Shown: in pieces, positions 2,530-12,357 of the stretch | Layout of the letters: every line of letters starts with the position of its first letter | Position numbering within the stretch: position 1 is the first letter of the stretch | Assembly: GCA_017555825.1 (NCBI GenBank) | Contig: JAFZFQ010000006.1 | Location: 1 to 49,590, forward strand | DNA length: 49,590 nucleotides | Source of the DNA: Bacteroidaceae bacterium | GTDB taxonomy: Bacteria; Bacteroidota; Bacteroidia; Bacteroidales; Barnesiellaceae_A | Reading direction: 5' to 3' | Notes under the pieces: model-generated | Told to the model about the DNA's origin: nothing | Databases searched by the model: none | Seen by the model: only the letters and a program-made list of their open reading frames with translations | Made by a program: the position numbers and the translations under genes

Positions 2530-5268
2530 ATGAGAACCAAAATATTATATATACTCTCCTTAATCTTTACACTCATCCCGGCAATAGCTCTGAGTGCAAC
2601 CAAATCGGAAGTTGCAAGCACGACAATTGTCACCCCGCTCTCTGCCGGACACAACAGCCACAATGCGCTGAGTGGCCGACACATTGCCTTGTGGAACAGC
2701 CACGGACGATACTATAACCAAATAGAGGGAGCCTGGATATGGCAACGCTCGCGCCTCATGGGTGTGGTCGAGGATATGTACACCACCGATTATGTGCTCA
2801 CCTTTCTGCTTCCTATGCTCGAAAACGCAGGAGCTTATGTATTTTTGCCTCGCGAGCGAGACCTCAACCCCTACGAGTACATTATAGATAACGATACCCC
2901 CAACGCGACATACAGCGAACGAGGTGCATGGAATGTGGGTGCAAAAAAGGGATTTGCCCACACACAAGAGGTATATGAGGGTTTTATCAACCCCTTTGAA
3001 CAGGGCACATACCGGTGGTGCAAAAGCACTACGGGAAAGGCTACATCATCGGTAACATGGAGTATACCGGTGCAACATAGTGGCGCACATGCCCTGTATA
3101 TAGCCTATAGCAACGTGAAAAACGGTGCTACCGACGCTCGCTACAAGGTATATCATGCGGGGGGCGTGAGCGAGTATTCGGTAAACCAAAGCATGGGTGG
3201 TGGCACATGGATATATCTGGGCACATTCGACTTTGAAGAGGGTAGCGACAACCGCGTGGAGCTATCCAATCATTCGAGCATAGCAGGACAATACATCACC
3301 GCCGATGCTATAAAAGTGGGTGGAGGTATGGGTAATATTGTTCGCAAGCCCTGCTTGAAACCTCGTAAAGCAACAAAAGAGGCCTTGAAAAACCAAAAGG
3401 CAGAGGCAAAGAAGAAAAAGAAAAACAAAAAGAAGAAAGAGCCCAAAGCCAACGTTGAGATAGCCACAACAAGCCACATGCCCCGCTATGCCGAGGCAGC
3501 ACGCTACTGGATGCAGTGGGCTGGTGTACCCGACACAATCTACTCAGACACCGGTGGCGATAACGACTATAGCGACGACACTCGTGGACGTGCCTATTGG
3601 GTAAATTATCTGTGTGGAGGCTCGGCAGTTCTCCCCGACGAGAAGGGTCTCAACATTCCCATCGACATGGCATTTGCCTTTCACTCAGATGCCGGTAACG
3701 TACCGGGCGACTCTATCATAGGCAGTATGGGCATTTACTATACCGGCAAGACAAAGCGTGCCCAAACCAAGCGCTTTGCCAACGGAGTGTCGCGCATACA
3801 ATCGGAGCAACTCAACGACTGCATCTATAACGAGATACAGCAAGATATAACATTATCGTTGCATGAAGATTGGACTATGCGCAAGTGTCTCGACCGTCGG
3901 TATGCCGAAGCTCGACTGCACGATGTGCCTTGCATGCTGCTCGAATCGATGTCGCATCAGAACTTTGCCGACATGCGTTGGGGACTCGACCCACGCTTTA
4001 AGTTCATCATGAGCCGTGCCATCTATAAAGGCATGTTGCGTTACATTTCCAATCGCTACAAGACACCCTATGTGGTGCAACCGCTACCTGTAGACCACAT
4101 GGCTATGCAATGGCAAGGCAACAAGCAGGTAGAGATAAGCTGGAAAGCCGTTATGGACACACTCGAATCAACTGCAACACCCACACACTACAAGGTATAT
4201 ACTCGTCGTGGCGATTATGGTTGGGACAATGGCAAGTGTATCACAACAACCCACTATACCGCTGAGATTGAGAACGACGTGGCATACTCCTTCTACGTTA
4301 CTGCCCTGAACGATGGTGGTGAAAGTTTTCCGTCGGAGATACTATCGGCCTACCGTTCAAGCACATCACGCGAGACAGTAATGATAGTCAACGCATTCGA
4401 CCGCATCAGTGCACCTATAGCATTTACCGACACGGTATCCAATGCAGCGGGTTTCCTATACGACATAGACGGCGGTGTACCCTACAAGCACACAGTGGCA
4501 TTCACGGGCTATCAATATAACTTCGACCGAGCTTCGGAGTGGAAAGACGACTTGATAGACCCCGGATTTGGCGCAAGCAACAGCAACTACGACGGCCAGC
4601 GCACGGCCGGCAATACCTTCGACTACCCTCACATACATGGCAAGGCACTTGCCTCAATGGGGTACTCATACCTCTCCACATCGGACGAGGCAGTAAACAG
4701 TGGCATAACCCACTTGAGCCATTACCGCTACGTCGATGTGATAATGGGTAAAGAGCGAGCTACAATCTTGGGCAACGACTCGTCACACTACGATTTCGAA
4801 GCTCTACCGGCCGAATTTACCAACGCCCTAACACAATATTGTCTCGGAGGAGGCAATCTGCTCATCAGCGGTGCATACATCGGTCAGGATGCTTGCGAGG
4901 GTGAACTATCGTCACAACATGCTCGCACCTTCCTCAGCGATATACTTCACTGTGAATGGATATCGAGCCGTAGCGCACAAATAAACGCTACAGTACACTG
5001 CATAGTACCCGAGTACAACATGGCACCACTTCAATGGAATAGCAAGCCCAATGCACACTGTTATGCCGTGGAGCAAACCGATATATTCTACCCCACTGAC
5101 GAGCAATCGGTTGTCTTCATGCAGTATACCAACGGAGATGGAGCCGCTATTGCCTGCATGGGCAACGACTATCGCTGTTGCACATTGGGATTTCCCATAG
5201 AAGCCATAGACAACCCCACGGAGCGAGAGAAACTCTTCCGACTTATTTTTGATTTTCTACAACCCTAA
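2530..5268 (+). CDS. Secreted Amidase_3-like protein with golvesin-like insertion (often annotated xanthan lyase)
   Basis: Likely periplasmic or secreted N-acetylmuramoyl-L-alanine amidase. A signal peptide covers residues 1-22. The zinc/catalytic set of Amidase_3 can be read in order: H58 ([10 protein letters not shown]), E81 (GVVED), H385 (FAFHSDAG) and E472 ([10 protein letters not shown]). Between E81 and H385 sits a foreign segment of about 250 residues: a golvesin C-terminal-like beta domain (about 135-270) and then a lysine run (K294-K303, one Asn). Downstream are a fibronectin-III-like domain (about 520-610) and a C-terminal region with a [12 protein letters not shown] segment resembling a glutamine-amidotransferase-like fold. 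Related proteins carry the automatic name xanthan lyase, which the residues here do not support. It is first in the putative peptidoglycan-salvage unit, 11 bases before the next gene. Substrate is inferred. Confidence 0.75.
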
Positions 5269-5279
5269 CATACACTACA

Positions 5280-7676
5280 ATGAAGCATCTTGTAACTTGC
5301 TTTATAGCATACAATGGTATAGATGAATATGCCGAACAAACAATCAACTCCTTGCGCAATGCCGGAGCTGAGCATTTTGTTTTACTCACTACAAGCTATA
5401 TAGAGAGCAAGCTCACTCAACAATACCCCACACTCACATCACTTACATTGCAAACCAACGAGTTGATGCAAAATATATGCGTTGAGTGCAACACACCCTA
5501 TATGCTTGTTTATGACAAATATACCCCTCTCGACATAAACAACCGAGCACTATCGCGCATGCTGCAAGTGGCCGAAGACACACAAGCCGGCATGGTATAT
5601 AGCGACTACTATGAGTTGCGCGATGAGAAACGACAAGCTCACCCTGTGATAGACTACCAACCGGGTAGTGTACGCAACGACTTTGATTTCGGCAGCCTGG
5701 TTCTCTACCGCACAAGCACATTTATAGATGCCACTGCCGAGGATGTGATGAGTCGCAATTTTCAGTATGCCGGTGTATACGCCATGCGATTGAGCATAAG
5801 CCGTATAGCTCACATAGCACACATTGCCGAGTATCTATATACCGAAATTGAAGAAGACAAGCGCGCAGGAGGTGTAAAACAGTTTGACTACGTAGACCCT
5901 CGCAACCGTGGTGTACAGATTGAGATGGAAGACGCCTTTACCTACCACCTCTATAAGGTAGGAGGCTTGGTACATGAGTATCAACTCAAAGATGTACACG
6001 CATGCGACGCAGATTTTCCCTGTATCGCATCGGTAATTATACCGGTATATAACCGAGTGCGTACTATAGGCGATGCCATAGAGTCGGCACTCAATCAAGA
6101 GACCGACTTTGACTACAATGTAATAGTTATAGACAACCATTCGACCGACGGCACAACAGAACTGATAGAGCGCTATGCTCACAATAAACGCCTCGTACAC
6201 CTCATACCCGAGCGCTTCGATTTGGGCATAGGTGGTTGCTGGCAACGTGCCATCGACGATAGTAGATGCGGTCGCTATGCCATACAACTCGACAGCGACG
6301 ACATATACAGTGGTGCAAAGACCCTGCAACAGATAGTAGACTGCTTCCGCAAGGAGAAGTGTGCTATGGTAATAGGTAGCTACGACCTCACCGACTTCAA
6401 CCTCAATCCCATACCTCCGGGTCTCATCGACCACAAAGAGTGGACCGACACCAATGGTCGCAACAATGCCTTGCGCATAAACGGATTGGGAGCACCTCGC
6501 GCATTTGAAACTACCGTTTTGCGCCACATAGGTATACCCAATGTGAGCTATGGCGAGGATTATGCCCTCGGATTGCGCATATCGCGCACCTACCGCATCG
6601 GTCGCATCTACACCTCGTTATACCATTGCCGACGCTGGGAAGGCAACTCCGATGCTGCACTGCCCATCGATCGCATCAACCGCAACAATTACTACAAAGA
6701 CCAACTGCGCACCATTGAGTTGCAAGCACGCATAGCCATGAACAAAAAGGTCTATGAACTGTACGAGTTGCGTCGCAAGCAATTGGCATCGTGGGAGATG
6801 GTTCGACTCAACTACGAAGCACTCGGCAAGGCCAATGTGCGCAAGTTGAGCTGCAACGGCATAGAATTTGCCATACAGCACAATCCCAAGCGCATCACCT
6901 CGGTAACTGCATCTGCTCCCACCAACTATGAGGATGGTTGCTTCTTGTGCAACGAAAATTTACCCCAAGAGCAATTGCGCATGCCCATCCTTGGCGGTAA
7001 ATATCAGATATTGGTCAATCCCTACCCTATCTTCGGCCAACACTTTACAATTCCGGCCACCACGCACACGCCTCAAAGCATTGATGGTCGCATAAACGAT
7101 ATGTTGCAAATAGCCGAGGACTATGCACCCTATACAATCTTCTACAACGGTGCACGATGTGGTGCTTCGGCACCCATGCACATGCACTTCCAGATGGTCG
7201 AGGGCGGTCTGTTGCCCATTGAGCAAGAGTGGAAGAGTGCCGAGGAGAGAGTTTTGCGACAAGAGGTAGGTGCAGGCAAACTATCGCTACTCAACAATCT
7301 GCAGCGTCCGGCATTCCTCATCACTTCGCACGACAAGTGGAGCGCCAAGATGCTATGTGAGGAGTTGTGTAACGCATTGCCCTCACAACCCGGCGAAGAA
7401 CCCATGATGAATATCATAGCACGATATGAAAATGCACAGTATGTTGTACTTGTACTGCCTCGTGCCAAGCATCGCCCCGACTGCTACTATGCCACCGACA
7501 TGAGCCAACGCCTCATAAGCCCCGCATCGGTAGAGATGGGAGGACTCTTTATCACTCCTCGCGAAGAAGATTTCGCCAACCTCACAATCGAAGAGATATG
7601 TAACATATATAACGAGGTAACACCCTCAAATGAAGAAATAGACAACATTGCCCGACAATTATGCAAGACAAAATAA
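5280..7676 (+). CDS. Tandem GT-A glycosyltransferase (family 2) fused to DUF4922 (HIT/GalT-like phosphorylase domain)
   Basis: Three modules are visible. Residues 1-240 look like a degenerate GT-A domain ([20 protein letters not shown] at the start, VYSDYYE near residue 110). Residues 248-480 are a canonical family 2 transferase, opening with [10 protein letters not shown] and holding the metal-binding LDSDD at 337-341. Residues from about 520 to 798 are DUF4922, which resembles GDP-L-galactose phosphorylase and ATP adenylyltransferases, with a HIT-type HMHFQ at 634-638. There is no signal peptide or membrane helix, so it should be cytoplasmic. It lies between an amidase-like gene and a SpoIID gene and shares TAATG with the latter. 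The reaction is unknown; one possibility is coupling of nucleotide-sugar phosphorolysis to glycosyl transfer. Domain calls are confident, the function is not. Confidence 0.8.
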
Positions 7677-8995
7677 TGAAACAGCCCCACATTCATGTAG
7701 GCATTATGGCCGATACACGCATCATCATAGTGTTTGATGGTGTGTACAACTGCAATGGTAAACAAGTGGAGGGCGAGCAACTATTTGCTCGCACAGCCAA
7801 CGGTATAGCATGGCAAGGCTCTACCTACGAGACATTGACTTTTACTCCCGAAAATGAAGAGAAAGCATCTTTCTTGCTACAAGACGTAACGATAGGTATA
7901 GGTTTTCATTGGCAACGTCACGAAAACCAGCGATTCAGAGGTGGTGTAGAGCTCATCACCGAAGAGAAGAAAATACGTGTCATCAATCATGTAATGGTCG
8001 AGGAGTACTTGCGCAGTGTTATCTCGTCGGAAATGAAAGCAACCTCGTCAATAGAACTACTCAAGGCACACGCCGTGATATCGCGTAGTTGGCTACTTGC
8101 CCAGATAGAGAAACGCAACGCCATAGAGGCAACTGCAACCCCCTATACAAGCGAGACAAATACCGACGAAGAACGCATGAAATGGTATGACCGCGAGGAG
8201 CACGACAACTACGACGTGTGTGCCGATGATCACTGCCAACGCTACCAAGGTATCACACGCGCGTCGGCCGCAGCCGTCAATGAGGCCGTAGATGCTACTT
8301 TCGGACAAGTGCTCTACTATGGCGACCGCATTGCCGATGCACGTTTTTCGAAGTGTTGCGGTGGTGCTACCGAATTGTTTGAGAACTGTTGGGAACCCTC
8401 ACCCCACCCCTACTTGGTAGCACAATTGGATAGTGCCGAGGGTACACTACCCGACTTGCGCATAGAGGAGAATGCTCGTGAGTGGATAATGTCGAAACAA
8501 GATACATTCTGTAGTACAAACGATAAAAACATTCTATCGCAAGTGCTCAACGGATATGACCAAGAGACCTCTCAATTCTATCGTTGGCGCATCGAATACG
8601 AGCAAGATGAACTGTCGGCACTTGTACGTCGTCGCTCGGGTATAGACTTTGGCACAATACAAGAGTTGCAACCCGTAGAGCGTGGTACATCGGGACGCAT
8701 CATCCGCCTACGCATCGTGGGTAGCAAGCGTACACTTATTGTAGGCAAGGAACTTGAAGTGCGTCGCTGGTTGTCGGAGAGTCACCTATACAGCTCGGCA
8801 TTTGTAGTAGAGAAGCAACCCTATTACAACCAATCGAAGTTCATCTTACACGGAGCCGGTTGGGGTCATGGTGTGGGTCTGTGCCAGATAGGTGCTGCAG
8901 TGATGGGAGCCAAAGGCTATCGTTATGAAGAGATTTTAGCACACTACTTCCGTAACACCGAGATACGCAACTTGTATAACAAAGAGGAAGCATAA
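7676..8995 (+). CDS. SpoIID/LytB domain protein, predicted peptidoglycan lytic transglycosylase
   Basis: SpoIID-family enzymes cleave peptide-free glycan strands, leaving 1,6-anhydro-MurNAc ends. The core motif VEEYLRSVISSEMK (around residue 110) contains the Glu expected to be catalytic, followed by LLKAHAVISRSW. A Cys pair (SKCCGG) and the C-terminal family signature GWGHGVGLCQIGAAVMGAKG are also present. I chose the ATG at 7676, which forms TAATG with the upstream stop; an in-frame ATG at 7661 would overlap the previous gene by 16 bases. No signal peptide is visible from either start, which is odd for a wall enzyme. It follows an amidase-like gene, the pairing expected for SpoIIP/SpoIID-type action (amidase first, then glycan cleavage). 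The family is confident, the location is not. Confidence 0.87.
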   Translation: MKQPHIHVGIMADTRIIIVFDGVYNCNGKQVEGEQLFARTANGIAWQGSTYETLTFTPENEEKASFLLQDVTIGIGFHWQRHENQRFRGGVELITEEKKIRVINHVMVEEYLRSVISSEMKATSSIELLKAHAVISRSWLLAQIEKRNAIEATATPYTSETNTDEERMKWYDREEHDNYDVCADDHCQRYQGITRASAAAVNEAVDATFGQVLYYGDRIADARFSKCCGGATELFENCWEPSPHPYLVAQLDSAEGTLPDLRIEENAREWIMSKQDTFCSTNDKNILSQVLNGYDQETSQFYRWRIEYEQDELSALVRRRSGIDFGTIQELQPVERGTSGRIIRLRIVGSKRTLIVGKELEVRRWLSESHLYSSAFVVEKQPYYNQSKFILHGAGWGHGVGLCQIGAAVMGAKGYRYEEILAHYFRNTEIRNLYNKEEA

Positions 8996-8997
8996 TC

Positions 8998-10284
8998 ATG
9001 AAACAAGCCTCAGCACGTCGATCGCCCTGGAGTTGGGTTCCGTCTCTGTACTTTGCCGAGGGATTACCCTATGTCATTGTCATGACGGTATCGGTTATCA
9101 TGTACAAAAACTTCAACCTCTCCAACAGCGAGATAGCATTCTACACAGGATGGCTCTATTTACCTTGGGTCATCAAGCCTCTATGGAGCCCGTTTGTAGA
9201 CCTTTTCAAGACCAAACGCTGGTGGATAACCACCATGCAACTACTTGTAGGAGTAGGTTTTGCAGCCATTGCATTTACCTTGAACATGCCCTATATGGTC
9301 GAACTTTCGCTCGCTTTCTTCTGGCTCATGGCATTCTCATCGGCCACTCACGATATTGCTGCCGATGGATTCTATCTGCTTGCCGTACCCGAAAAAGACG
9401 AGCAAGCCCTATTTGTGGGTATACGCAGTACATTCTACCGTATATCGACCATAGCCGGACAAGGGCTCCTTGTACTGCTGGCCGGATACCTCATCGACCG
9501 CAATGTGGGTATAGCAAATGCATGGACGATTACTTTTGCTGTTATGGCGGCTATATTCATCGCACTGTTTCTATACCATCGCTTTGTATTGCCTCGCCCC
9601 GATAGCGACCATGCTACAAGCGACGATACCTCGACAAGTGCAATATTCAAGGGCTTTATCAAGACATTTACAACCTTTTTCAAGAAAGAGTATGCACTAA
9701 GTTCCATTATCTTTATGTTGCTCTATCGCCTACCCGAAGCCCTGCTTGTAAAGATGACAAGCCCATTCTTGCTCGACTCGGTAGAAGATGGCGGTATGGG
9801 TATGACTACCCTGCAAGTGGGTATGGCTACCGGTACAGTGGGTGTAATAGGACTCACTATAGGAGGCATATTGGGAGGTGTGTGTGCATCGCACGGAGGA
9901 CTCAAACGCTGGCTATGGCCTATGGTTACGGCTATAAGTCTGCCCAATATTGTCTATGTAATCATGGCCTATACTCACCCCGAGCTTTGGATTGTCAATG
10001 CACTGATTTTCATTGAACAATTTGGATACGGATTTGGATTTACTGCCTACATGCTATTCCTCATTCACTATGCCGAAGGCGAGAGCACTACAGCACACTA
10101 TGCGTTGTGTACAGCCTTCATGGCAATGGGCATGATGATACCGGGCATGGCTGCCGGTTGGTTGCAAGAGTTGCTTGGTTATCAACACTTCTTTATCCTC
10201 ATCTGCCTGCTATGCCTTGTCACTGTAGGGGTATGTTGCTTTATAAAACTCGATAAACCTACCAATAAAACGCCTCATGAATAG
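8998..10284 (+). CDS. ampG: AmpG-like MFS permease (muropeptide import)
   Basis: A polytopic membrane protein of the major facilitator superfamily, about 12 hydrophobic segments, 428 residues. The beginning (SLYFAEGLPYVIV, then GWLYLPWVIKPLWSPFVD) is the hallmark of the AmpG/PAT branch, whose best-known member imports GlcNAc-anhydroMurNAc(-peptides) into the cytoplasm. The ATG is two bases after the stop of the SpoIID gene, and the 3-prime end overlaps the DUF1343 gene by 8 bases, so translation is probably coupled. Neighbours that release or degrade muropeptides favour a salvage role. AmpG-like proteins can also carry other substrates such as siderophores, so the substrate is inferred from context. 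Confidence 0.82.
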   Translation: MKQASARRSPWSWVPSLYFAEGLPYVIVMTVSVIMYKNFNLSNSEIAFYTGWLYLPWVIKPLWSPFVDLFKTKRWWITTMQLLVGVGFAAIAFTLNMPYMVELSLAFFWLMAFSSATHDIAADGFYLLAVPEKDEQALFVGIRSTFYRISTIAGQGLLVLLAGYLIDRNVGIANAWTITFAVMAAIFIALFLYHRFVLPRPDSDHATSDDTSTSAIFKGFIKTFTTFFKKEYALSSIIFMLLYRLPEALLVKMTSPFLLDSVEDGGMGMTTLQVGMATGTVGVIGLTIGGILGGVCASHGGLKRWLWPMVTAISLPNIVYVIMAYTHPELWIVNALIFIEQFGYGFGFTAYMLFLIHYAEGESTTAHYALCTAFMAMGMMIPGMAAGWLQELLGYQHFFILICLLCLVTVGVCCFIKLDKPTNKTPHE

Positions 10285-11518
10285 ATTGCGCCTTATAATA
10301 GTATTGCTACTGAGTTGGTGTTGCCTCACATCGGCAATGGCCGACGTTGTGGTAAAGACAGGACTGGAAGTGCTCATAGAGCAAGACTTTGCCCCTCTTG
10401 CCGGCAAACGCGTAGGACTCATAACCAACCCTACCGGCGTCGATAGCCAACTGCGCTCGACAATAGACATATTGCACGAAGCCCCCAATGTAAACCTTGT
10501 GGCACTATATGCCCCCGAGCATGGTGTGCGTGGCAATGTATATGCCGGCGACAAGGTCAATAGTTCGACCGATACCAAGACAGGTATTCCCATACACTCA
10601 CTCTACGGAAAGAGTCGCAAGCCCACGGCCGAAATGCTGCGCGGTATAGATGTGCTTGTATACGACATACAAGACATAGGCTGTCGCTCATATACATTCA
10701 TCAGCACAATGGGACTTGCTATGCAAGCCGCTGCCGAACAAAATATAGAGTTTATGGTGCTCGACCGCCCCAATCCGCTCGGTGGCTACCGCGTTGAAGG
10801 TTGCCCCGTCGAGGATGGATTTACCTCGTTTGTGAGTCAATATCCTATACCCTATATCTACGGACTCACATGTGGCGAGCTGGCACAACTACTCAATAGT
10901 GAGAAGTTGATTGGCAAGAAGAGTTGCAAGCTCACCGTAATAGCCATGAAGGGTTGGACTCGCGATATGGACTTTGAAGATACAGGTCTACCTTGGGTAC
11001 TCCCCTCTCCTCACATTCCCCAACCCATATCGGCCTATTACTATCCGCTATCGGGTATAGCCGGCGAATTGGGCACAATCTCGATAGGTGTGGGATACAC
11101 AATGCCGTTCCAACTCTTTGCAGCCGAGTGGATCGATGCCGAGAGCCTTGCACAGCGTCTCAATGCACTCAACCTGCCGGGTATCGCCTTCCGTCCTATA
11201 CATTACACCCCCTTCTATGCTATGGGCAAAGGAACCAAGTTGCAAGGTGTGCAAGTGCACATCACCAATCGCGACAAAGCTCCTCTATCAGAGATTCAGT
11301 TCTATGTGATGCAAGAGTTGGCTGCGCTCTATCCCCAACACAAAGCCTTTGAAAAGGCCGAACAATCGCGCTTGAACATGGTAGACAAAGTGTGTGGCAC
11401 ATCACAAATACGCCAACTCTTTACCAAGCGATACCGTTGGGAAGATGCTCGCGACTACTGGAACAAAGGTGTGGGTGCATTCAAGCAACTATCACGTCAA
11501 TACTATATATACCCATGA
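10277..11518 (+). CDS. namZ: DUF1343 exo-beta-N-acetylmuramidase (NamZ, GH171)
   Basis: Members of DUF1343 (NamZ) release MurNAc from the non-reducing end of peptide-free murein chains. The signatures are clear: VGLITNPTGVD near residue 49, YAPEHGVRGN near residue 77, and VYDIQDIGCRSYTFISTMG near residue 119. The N-terminus (LRLIIVLLLSWCCLTSAMA) is a signal peptide, so it acts in the periplasm. Length, 413 residues, suits the family. The start overlaps the AmpG-like gene by 8 bases and its stop overlaps the kinase start (ATGA). In Tannerella forsythia, a relative that cannot make MurNAc, the same kinds of proteins feed MurNAc salvage. Product identity is confident; use by this organism is inferred. 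Confidence 0.88.
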   Translation: MNRLRLIIVLLLSWCCLTSAMADVVVKTGLEVLIEQDFAPLAGKRVGLITNPTGVDSQLRSTIDILHEAPNVNLVALYAPEHGVRGNVYAGDKVNSSTDTKTGIPIHSLYGKSRKPTAEMLRGIDVLVYDIQDIGCRSYTFISTMGLAMQAAAEQNIEFMVLDRPNPLGGYRVEGCPVEDGFTSFVSQYPIPYIYGLTCGELAQLLNSEKLIGKKSCKLTVIAMKGWTRDMDFEDTGLPWVLPSPHIPQPISAYYYPLSGIAGELGTISIGVGYTMPFQLFAAEWIDAESLAQRLNALNLPGIAFRPIHYTPFYAMGKGTKLQGVQVHITNRDKAPLSEIQFYVMQELAALYPQHKAFEKAEQSRLNMVDKVCGTSQIRQLFTKRYRWEDARDYWNKGVGAFKQLSRQYYIYP

Positions 11519-12357
11519 TACTACTCATAGCCGATAGTGGCTCTACAACAACCGATTGGGCTGTAGTATACAACAATACTACACTGCACATCAAAACGCC
11601 GGGGATAAATCCTGTGCATCAAGACGATACGACTATAGAATGTACCTTATCGCAAGGATTGTGCCCGCAGTTGAAAGAGATTGAGCCTACACACATATAC
11701 TTTTATGGTGCAGGATGTGTGGGAGGTGAGGCCAATATGCGATTGGAGAAAATTTTTCGCGCTCACTATCCGCAAGCACACATTGCCATTGAGAGCGATT
11801 TGCTCGGTGCTGCTCGCAGCCTGTGCCAACACACCCCCGGTATAGCCGGCATATTGGGTACAGGAGCCAATTCATGCTATTACGATGGTAGTGCAATAGT
11901 AGCCAATATTCCTCCGCTCGGTTATATATTGGGCGACGAAGGCAGTGGTGCATCGCTTGGAAAGGCCTTCTTAAAGGCACTGCTACGCAATGAATTGGGT
12001 AGTGAGCTACTCAACGAGTTCTACACCGCCTACAGTACCGACTACCGCACACTTATCACTCGCATATACCGCGAGCCGGCGGCCAATCGCTACCTCGCAT
12101 CACTATCGCCATTCATCGCCTCGCAACTCGATAATGTCCAAGTGCGGCGCATTGTATACGACACATTTGCCTCATTTATCGACAACCACATAATGCGATA
12201 TGATTACAAAAACTCACCCCTTCACCTGACCGGCTCGGTGGCACACTACTACAAGGATGTAATAACCCAAGTAGCTCACGACAAAGGTGTAGAGATAGGT
12301 ACTATAACTCGCACACCCATAGATGGACTTATAACTTACCACACAAACAACATATAA
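11515..12357 (+). CDS. BadF/BadG/BcrA/BcrD-type ATPase, predicted amino-sugar (MurNAc/GlcNAc) kinase
   Basis: A 280-residue ASKHA-fold kinase. The phosphate-1 loop is ADSGSTTTDWAV at residues 6-17, the second phosphate motif is ILGTGANSCYYDG near residue 116, and GYILGDEGSGASLG is typical of N-acetylglucosamine kinases of the BadF group. The group includes MurK, which phosphorylates MurNAc and GlcNAc. I start it at 11515 because this ATG overlaps the NamZ stop (ATGA) and precedes the first beta strand; the frame stays open upstream to 11392 inside namZ, but that extension looks like a shadow. Following a NamZ gene, phosphorylation of released MurNAc is the simplest job. No murQ etherase is in the window. 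Substrate specificity is inferred. Confidence 0.8.
   Translation: MILLIADSGSTTTDWAVVYNNTTLHIKTPGINPVHQDDTTIECTLSQGLCPQLKEIEPTHIYFYGAGCVGGEANMRLEKIFRAHYPQAHIAIESDLLGAARSLCQHTPGIAGILGTGANSCYYDGSAIVANIPPLGYILGDEGSGASLGKAFLKALLRNELGSELLNEFYTAYSTDYRTLITRIYREPAANRYLASLSPFIASQLDNVQVRRIVYDTFASFIDNHIMRYDYKNSPLHLTGSVAHYYKDVITQVAHDKGVEIGTITRTPIDGLITYHTNNI

Follow-up and report, generated by a model that had tools for sequence, protein, structure and literature searches.

In the window, that is, the whole 49,590-nucleotide stretch analyzed, a cluster of forward-strand genes includes an open reading frame (ORF) at 5280..7676 (+) that runs uninterrupted for 798 codons. The cluster begins with an exported Golvesin_C or 'xanthan lyase'-like protein (2530..5268, +), in the same place as Tanf_08345 of Tannerella forsythia (PMC5388701). 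Relatives of this protein are labelled xanthan lyase, and its central part carries His/Glu motifs recalling zinc amidases, for which Pfam and PDB searches gave no confirmation. Among the genes of the cluster, none was identified as a SpoIIP-type amidase. A PiT-type phosphate transporter that is extended at its C terminus (121–2364) adjoins the cluster in this genus.

The ORF is followed by a gene for a SpoIID/LytB homologue of the long-insert type (7676..8995, +), which has no signal peptide and keeps the catalytic Glu. Its start ATG overlaps the stop codon of the ORF, and an alternative ATG lies at 7661. The product of the next gene (8998..10284, +) is assigned by family resemblance as an AmpG-type muropeptide MFS transporter, with an MFS_1 match and a TIGR00901 score of 178 bits, under the curated cut-off of 350. 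Then come a predicted NamZ exo-β-N-acetylmuramidase with an N-terminal hydrophobic, signal-like segment (10277..11518, +; PF07075, E 1.2e-86, and PF20732) and a sugar kinase of the MurK/K1058 family (11515..12357, +), which phmmer matches to T. forsythia MurNAc kinase structures with E-values of 1.6e-69 and 2.4e-69. An earlier note on this DNA, made from the sequence, had placed the ORF product in the cytoplasm within a muropeptide-salvage unit. The NamZ, AmpG-type and MurNAc-kinase relatives in the cluster agree with this setting, and a search for an N-terminal export signal in the ORF product found none.

Domain architecture of the fusion protein

The ORF encodes a 798-residue fusion of GT-A, GT2 and DUF4922 domains. 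Pfam places Glycos_transf_2 (PF00535) at residues 251–383 (E 2.6e-23) and DUF4922 (PF16269) at residues 499–640 (E 3.9e-51; 173.3 bits versus a cut-off of 23.6), and gives no match for residues 1–240. An AlphaFold2 model of the whole protein, built on an alignment of 52 relatives, has a pLDDT of 92.4 and a pTM of 0.87. In the model, residues 1–227 reproduce the order of strands and helices seen in residues 250–489. When profiles of the two halves are aligned, LVYDKYT of the first falls on QLDSDD of the second and YAGVYA on YGEDYA; the counterparts of DxD and GED in the N-terminal copy are non-acidic or variable, with neither acidic motif conserved. Because the fold is repeated in the model but the acidic motifs are not conserved, residues 1–240 (5280..5999, +) are a degenerate GT-A copy, stripped of its catalytic motifs. 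The second copy, residues 248–489 (6021..6746, +), is an intact GT2 domain by Pfam, motifs and fold, and its LDSDD (residues 337–341; 6288–6302, +) and GED (residues 425–427; 6552–6560, +) are invariant in 25 sequences. Over residues 1–489, starting from residue 1, the model matches the K4 chondroitin polymerase of E. coli (K4CP) with a Z score of 25.5 across 400 residues and an rmsd of 21 Å, and the two domains are therefore arranged differently. The double GT forms a separate family, with 45–86% identity over ~490 residues in the aligned set.

The remainder of the protein, residues 491–798 (6750..7673, +), is a DUF4922 domain with a predicted Ap4A-phosphorylase/GalT-clan fold. It contains CFLC (6939–6950, +) and HMHFQ (residues 634–638; 7179–7193, +), and both CFLC and HxHxQ are conserved, along with further His residues, in 26 relatives; the CxxC and His set is a possible counterpart of the zinc site of GalT. 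Residues 487–788 match yeast Ap4A phosphorylase Apa2 with a Z score of 22.8 over 266 residues at 3.4 Å. Modelled by itself (pLDDT 93.7), the domain is again closest to Apa2 (Z 22.5), followed by a DUF4931 protein (11.5), plant ADP-glucose phosphorylase (10.7) and GalT (8–10), and a profile of 26 DUF4922 sequences has Apa2 as its sole significant match in the PDB (E 2e-6).

The tripartite reading of the earlier note thus holds: structure prediction recovers a GT-A fold in residues 1–240 and a HIT/GalT-clan fold in DUF4922, Pfam and the invariant motifs identify the family 2 transferase, and the His motif is kept across relatives. The comparison it had suggested with GDP-L-galactose phosphorylase is refined, in that Apa2 is the nearest solved fold, with GalT and ADP-glucose phosphorylase more distant and no GDP-L-galactose phosphorylase structure among the fold-search matches. 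In the literature searched, DUF4922 was mentioned only in papers on plant GDP-L-galactose phosphorylase and no function was given, in accord with the note's statement that the fusion had no assigned activity.

A three-part module with a predicted cytoplasmic SpoIID

The fusion is genuine and not an assembly artefact, because it is present in four species of the genus and recurs in other families. Four other species of the genus encode the GT-GT and DUF4922 parts as separate adjoining genes. We collected 145 double-GT loci and found DUF4922 within five genes at 131, SpoIID at 107 and AmpG at 103; these numbers, like those below, were obtained with a simple ORF caller on loci partly fetched by similarity to the window protein, and they show how the genes are arranged rather than how often the arrangements occur in nature. 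Usually a double GT is followed by a separate DUF4922 gene, in the order GT-GT, DUF4922, SpoIID, AmpG. Fusions join GT-GT to DUF4922 at 16/145 loci and DUF4922 to SpoIID at 13/145, and at 32/145 loci, largely in Prevotella, all of GT-GT-DUF4922-SpoIID forms a single ORF of 1005–1297 amino acids. Judging from these arrangements, the fusion in the window is two thirds of a three-part module consisting of GT-GT, DUF4922 and a long-type SpoIID. A distant double-GT relative (G306:C86:338-1729, E 1e-62) comes from a 61%-complete genome in which no DUF4922 was found, and contig C140 of genome G047 carries a second, apparently broken DUF4922 copy adjoining a second double-GT copy.

The SpoIID neighbour scores 86 bits against PF08486 (cut-off 23). 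The catalytic Glu is present in all 31 SpoIID sequences compared, and a Cys-rich insert is also conserved. An N-terminal hydrophobic segment occurs in only 1/49 stand-alone SpoIID copies, versus 40/44 NamZ proteins from the same loci; for Golvesin_C proteins from these loci, the figure is 21/25. At 45 loci, SpoIID is fused to cytoplasmic enzymes. Because the hydrophobic segment is rare and the fusion partners need cytoplasmic nucleotide sugars, we predict that the long-type SpoIID is cytoplasmic. Measured from match coordinates, the match to PF08486 covers 330 bases or more in module SpoIID and at most ~303 in the SpoIID of module-free genomes. Two SpoIID subfamilies, separated by an insert within the PF08486 region, are seen in Bacteroidota, and some genomes have both. 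The earlier note had proposed donor recycling inside one protein; the nucleotidyl-transfer domain beside GT2 fits that idea, but the functional unit appears to include the cytoplasmic SpoIID as well.

Phylogenetic distribution of the module and AnmK

Peptidoglycan sugar recycling is usually described as going through the anhydroMurNAc kinase, AnmK. We compared 40 DUF4922-positive with 40 DUF4922-negative genomes of the window's order, mostly one per family, and 38 positive with 36 negative genomes from other classes of the same phylum. A long SpoIID was found in 40/40 versus 0/40 genomes of the order and in 37/38 versus 0/36 genomes of the other classes (77/78 versus 0/76 in total), and the double GT in 37/38 versus 0/36 genomes of the other-class sample. 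The three parts of the module therefore have a near-identical phylogenetic profile.

AnmK shows the opposite trend. In the order sample, it is present in 6/40 genomes with the module versus 34/40 without (Fisher P = 2.8e-10), and in the other classes, in 16/38 versus 34/36 (Fisher P = 1e-6). Collapsing the order to families gives 6/30 versus 34/40 (P = 4e-8). Since related genomes are not independent, we placed 79 of the sampled genomes on an rpoB tree, a quick one-gene tree, and fitted a two-trait likelihood model that lets AnmK loss depend on the module. The dependent model is favored (LR 16.2, 1 df, P = 6e-5), with an AnmK loss rate about tenfold higher with the module (4.39) than without (0.43). 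One caveat here is that the fit is of the Pagel type and shares the known weaknesses of such models. On the same tree, a more conservative independent-pairs test was not significant, yielding 8 pairs and a median P of 1, with too few informative pairs. The raw AnmK contrast owes part of its size to shared ancestry. These data indicate phylogenetic complementarity of the module with AnmK and a strong association between the two, and they give moderate support to a causal reading. The module and AnmK are not mutually exclusive, with AnmK retained in 22/78 module genomes; it is likewise missing from four genomes in the tree that have no module. The sole other-class module genome without a long SpoIID (G223) keeps AnmK.

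Within the window's order, 24/40 module genomes have MurQ versus 3/40 module-free genomes, and a MurNAc-kinase relative often lies near the module. Both are what one would expect of a module that supplies unphosphorylated MurNAc, to be used by a MurK-type kinase and then MurQ. A clear MurQ is absent from the window's own genome and 15 other module genomes of the 40. Given the MurK/K1058-type kinase in the window, the lack of a clear MurQ there suggests that MurNAc 6-phosphate would need another fate or the kinase another substrate. The AnmK-bearing, module-free Bacteroidales genomes almost never have MurQ, which suggests that they probably feed the MupP-AmgK-MurU route. We rejected the idea of a NagZ replacement, as a cytosolic NagZ at equivalog level is found in no genome of either group, and a GH3 protein of ~1000 amino acids is present in both.

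Work on T. forsythia bears on these patterns. The operon Tanf_08345–Tanf_08385, with the gene order xanthan lyase, gtf, gtf, lytB, ampG, ybbC (NamZ) and then murTKQ, is a single transcript under GppX control, and its counterpart of the AmpG-type transporter is functional (PMC5388701). T. forsythia AmpG imports GlcNAc-MurNAc and GlcNAc-anhMurNAc and is needed for growth on them, and the medium of an ampG mutant contains the two disaccharides (PMC7670621). The genome has no predicted AnmK, and the authors leave the anhydroMurNAc route open; free anhMurNAc supports poor growth, and AmgK and MurU are present (PMC7670621).

A candidate AnmK-independent route

Sequence and comparison establish the module's architecture and fusion history, its lack of export signals, the near-perfect co-occurrence of its parts and the depletion of AnmK. 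In our best reading, held at about even odds, the module is a cytoplasmic, AnmK-independent route for (anhydro)disaccharides imported by AmpG, above all GlcNAc-1,6-anhydroMurNAc. In the scheme we propose, SpoIID would use lytic-transglycosylase chemistry to open the ring: addition of water or of a sugar hydroxyl to the 1,6-anhydro bond would convert anhydroMurNAc to MurNAc without phosphorylation. The inverting GT2 domain would pass GlcNAc from the disaccharide to a nucleotide carrier or back, and DUF4922 would interconvert NDP-sugar plus phosphate and NDP plus sugar 1-phosphate through a nucleotidyl-histidine intermediate. The net yield would be GlcNAc 1-phosphate and free MurNAc, the latter for MurK/MurQ or AmgK/MurU, while the degenerate GT-A copy may have a structural role or bind the acceptor.

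GT2 enzymes invert UDP-α-sugars to β-glycosides. Running in reverse on GlcNAc-β-1,4-MurNAc, such an enzyme would give UDP-α-GlcNAc, from which a clan member acting as a phosphorylase could release GlcNAc 1-phosphate. The stereochemistry is consistent with this scheme, in which the direction, nucleotide and sugar are all proposals. A GT run backwards is thermodynamically uphill unless pulled, and we know of no precedent for a lytic transglycosylase as a ring-opener; literature searches on SpoIID with AmpG in Bacteroides and on reversed lytic transglycosylation found nothing on function. Equally possible is a forward alternative, in which the GT would make a GlcNAc acceptor and SpoIID would transfer the anhydro unit onto it. 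The exact set of reactions, with its inferred chemistry, is unlikely to be right in full. It is also unlikely that SpoIID is a lytic-transglycosylase homologue that moved into the cytoplasm to serve as ring-opener, and that the GT and the nucleotidyl-His phosphorylase pair up as a split, nucleotide-catalysed disaccharide phosphorylase, so that GlcNAc-anhydroMurNAc is recycled without ATP, AnmK or NagZ. In Prevotella, this whole set would be one four-domain polypeptide.

The module could instead serve the envelope: like K4CP or heparosan synthase, the double GT would use wall-derived precursors to make a glycan or a lipid-linked sugar, with DUF4922 trimming or supplying its donor, and only shared regulation would tie the module to muropeptide genes. 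Residues 1–489 do match a chondroitin polymerase over their whole length, and the T. forsythia operon was termed glycosylation-related by its authors (PMC5388701). However, the N-terminal GT copy lacks the catalytic motifs, unlike K4CP, and such a transferase would lead one to expect neither fusion to a cytoplasmic SpoIID, nor strict three-part co-occurrence, nor the pattern of AnmK loss; we consider this explanation unlikely. The GalT-clan fold, HxHxQ and the CxxC/His set bring up an anabolic shortcut leading straight to an activated wall sugar, with DUF4922 as a GalT-type transferase converting UDP-GlcNAc and MurNAc 1-phosphate to UDP-MurNAc and GlcNAc 1-phosphate, and GT and SpoIID supplying MurNAc from anhydro-disaccharides. 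Such a shortcut would give a use for MurNAc in the 16/40 module genomes, including the window's, that have no clear MurQ and must use it otherwise. The structural match to GalT (Z 8–9) is, however, weaker than that to Apa2 (Z 22), and T. forsythia has AmgK and MurU in any case (PMC7670621), making the shortcut rather improbable. Finally, since Apa2 is the best solved match by both fold and profile, DUF4922 might be an Ap4A-type phosphorylase in nucleotide housekeeping or signalling that tunes wall recycling through the level of its substrate or product, the GT being catalytically unrelated. This we regard as very unlikely: identity to Apa2 is ~15%, Pfam Ap4A_phos_N scores 16.2 bits on the fusion, under its cut-off of 23.1, and both the fusion to GT and SpoIID and the AnmK pattern would be left unexplained.

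Under the AnmK-independent reading, the conserved three-enzyme cytoplasmic module is a good candidate for a missing step in Bacteroidota. AnmK is absent from most sampled Bacteroidales genomes with the module, T. forsythia uses anhydro-disaccharides without it, and three candidate genes can now be named for this step. If correct, this would give DUF4922 a function, and likewise a cytoplasmic branch of the SpoIID family. The module occurs widely among Bacteroides and Prevotella of the gut and mouth, so that the answer would be relevant to their handling of immunologically active wall fragments.

Several known systems resemble parts of the proposed route. K4CP likewise has tandem GT-A domains, which correspond to the whole of residues 1–489 of the fusion; unlike in K4CP, the N-terminal copy of the fusion has lost DxD and GED. 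DUF4922 has the fold and the HxHxQ nucleotidyl-His motif in common with the clan of Apa2, GalT and GDP-L-galactose phosphorylase; it differs from Apa2 in having a CxxC as in GalT and in its fusion to GT2 and SpoIID. Sporulation SpoIID shares with module SpoIID the PF08486 core with its catalytic Glu and the C-terminal GHGVG motif, whereas module SpoIID is predicted to be cytoplasmic and has a longer insert in the PF08486 region. The AmpG/MurTKQ operon of T. forsythia has the same gene order as the window cluster, but its two 'gtf' genes and lytB are not fused according to the published gene list. From gene order only, the module probably corresponds to Tanf_08350–08360, with the second 'gtf' as the DUF4922 gene. 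Recycling through AnmK/MurQ or AnmK/MupP-AmgK-MurU would share with the proposed route its substrates, imported anhydroMurNAc units, and its compartment. Unlike these routes, the module has no kinase and would rely instead on a nucleotidyl-transfer enzyme together with a homologue of lytic transglycosylases.
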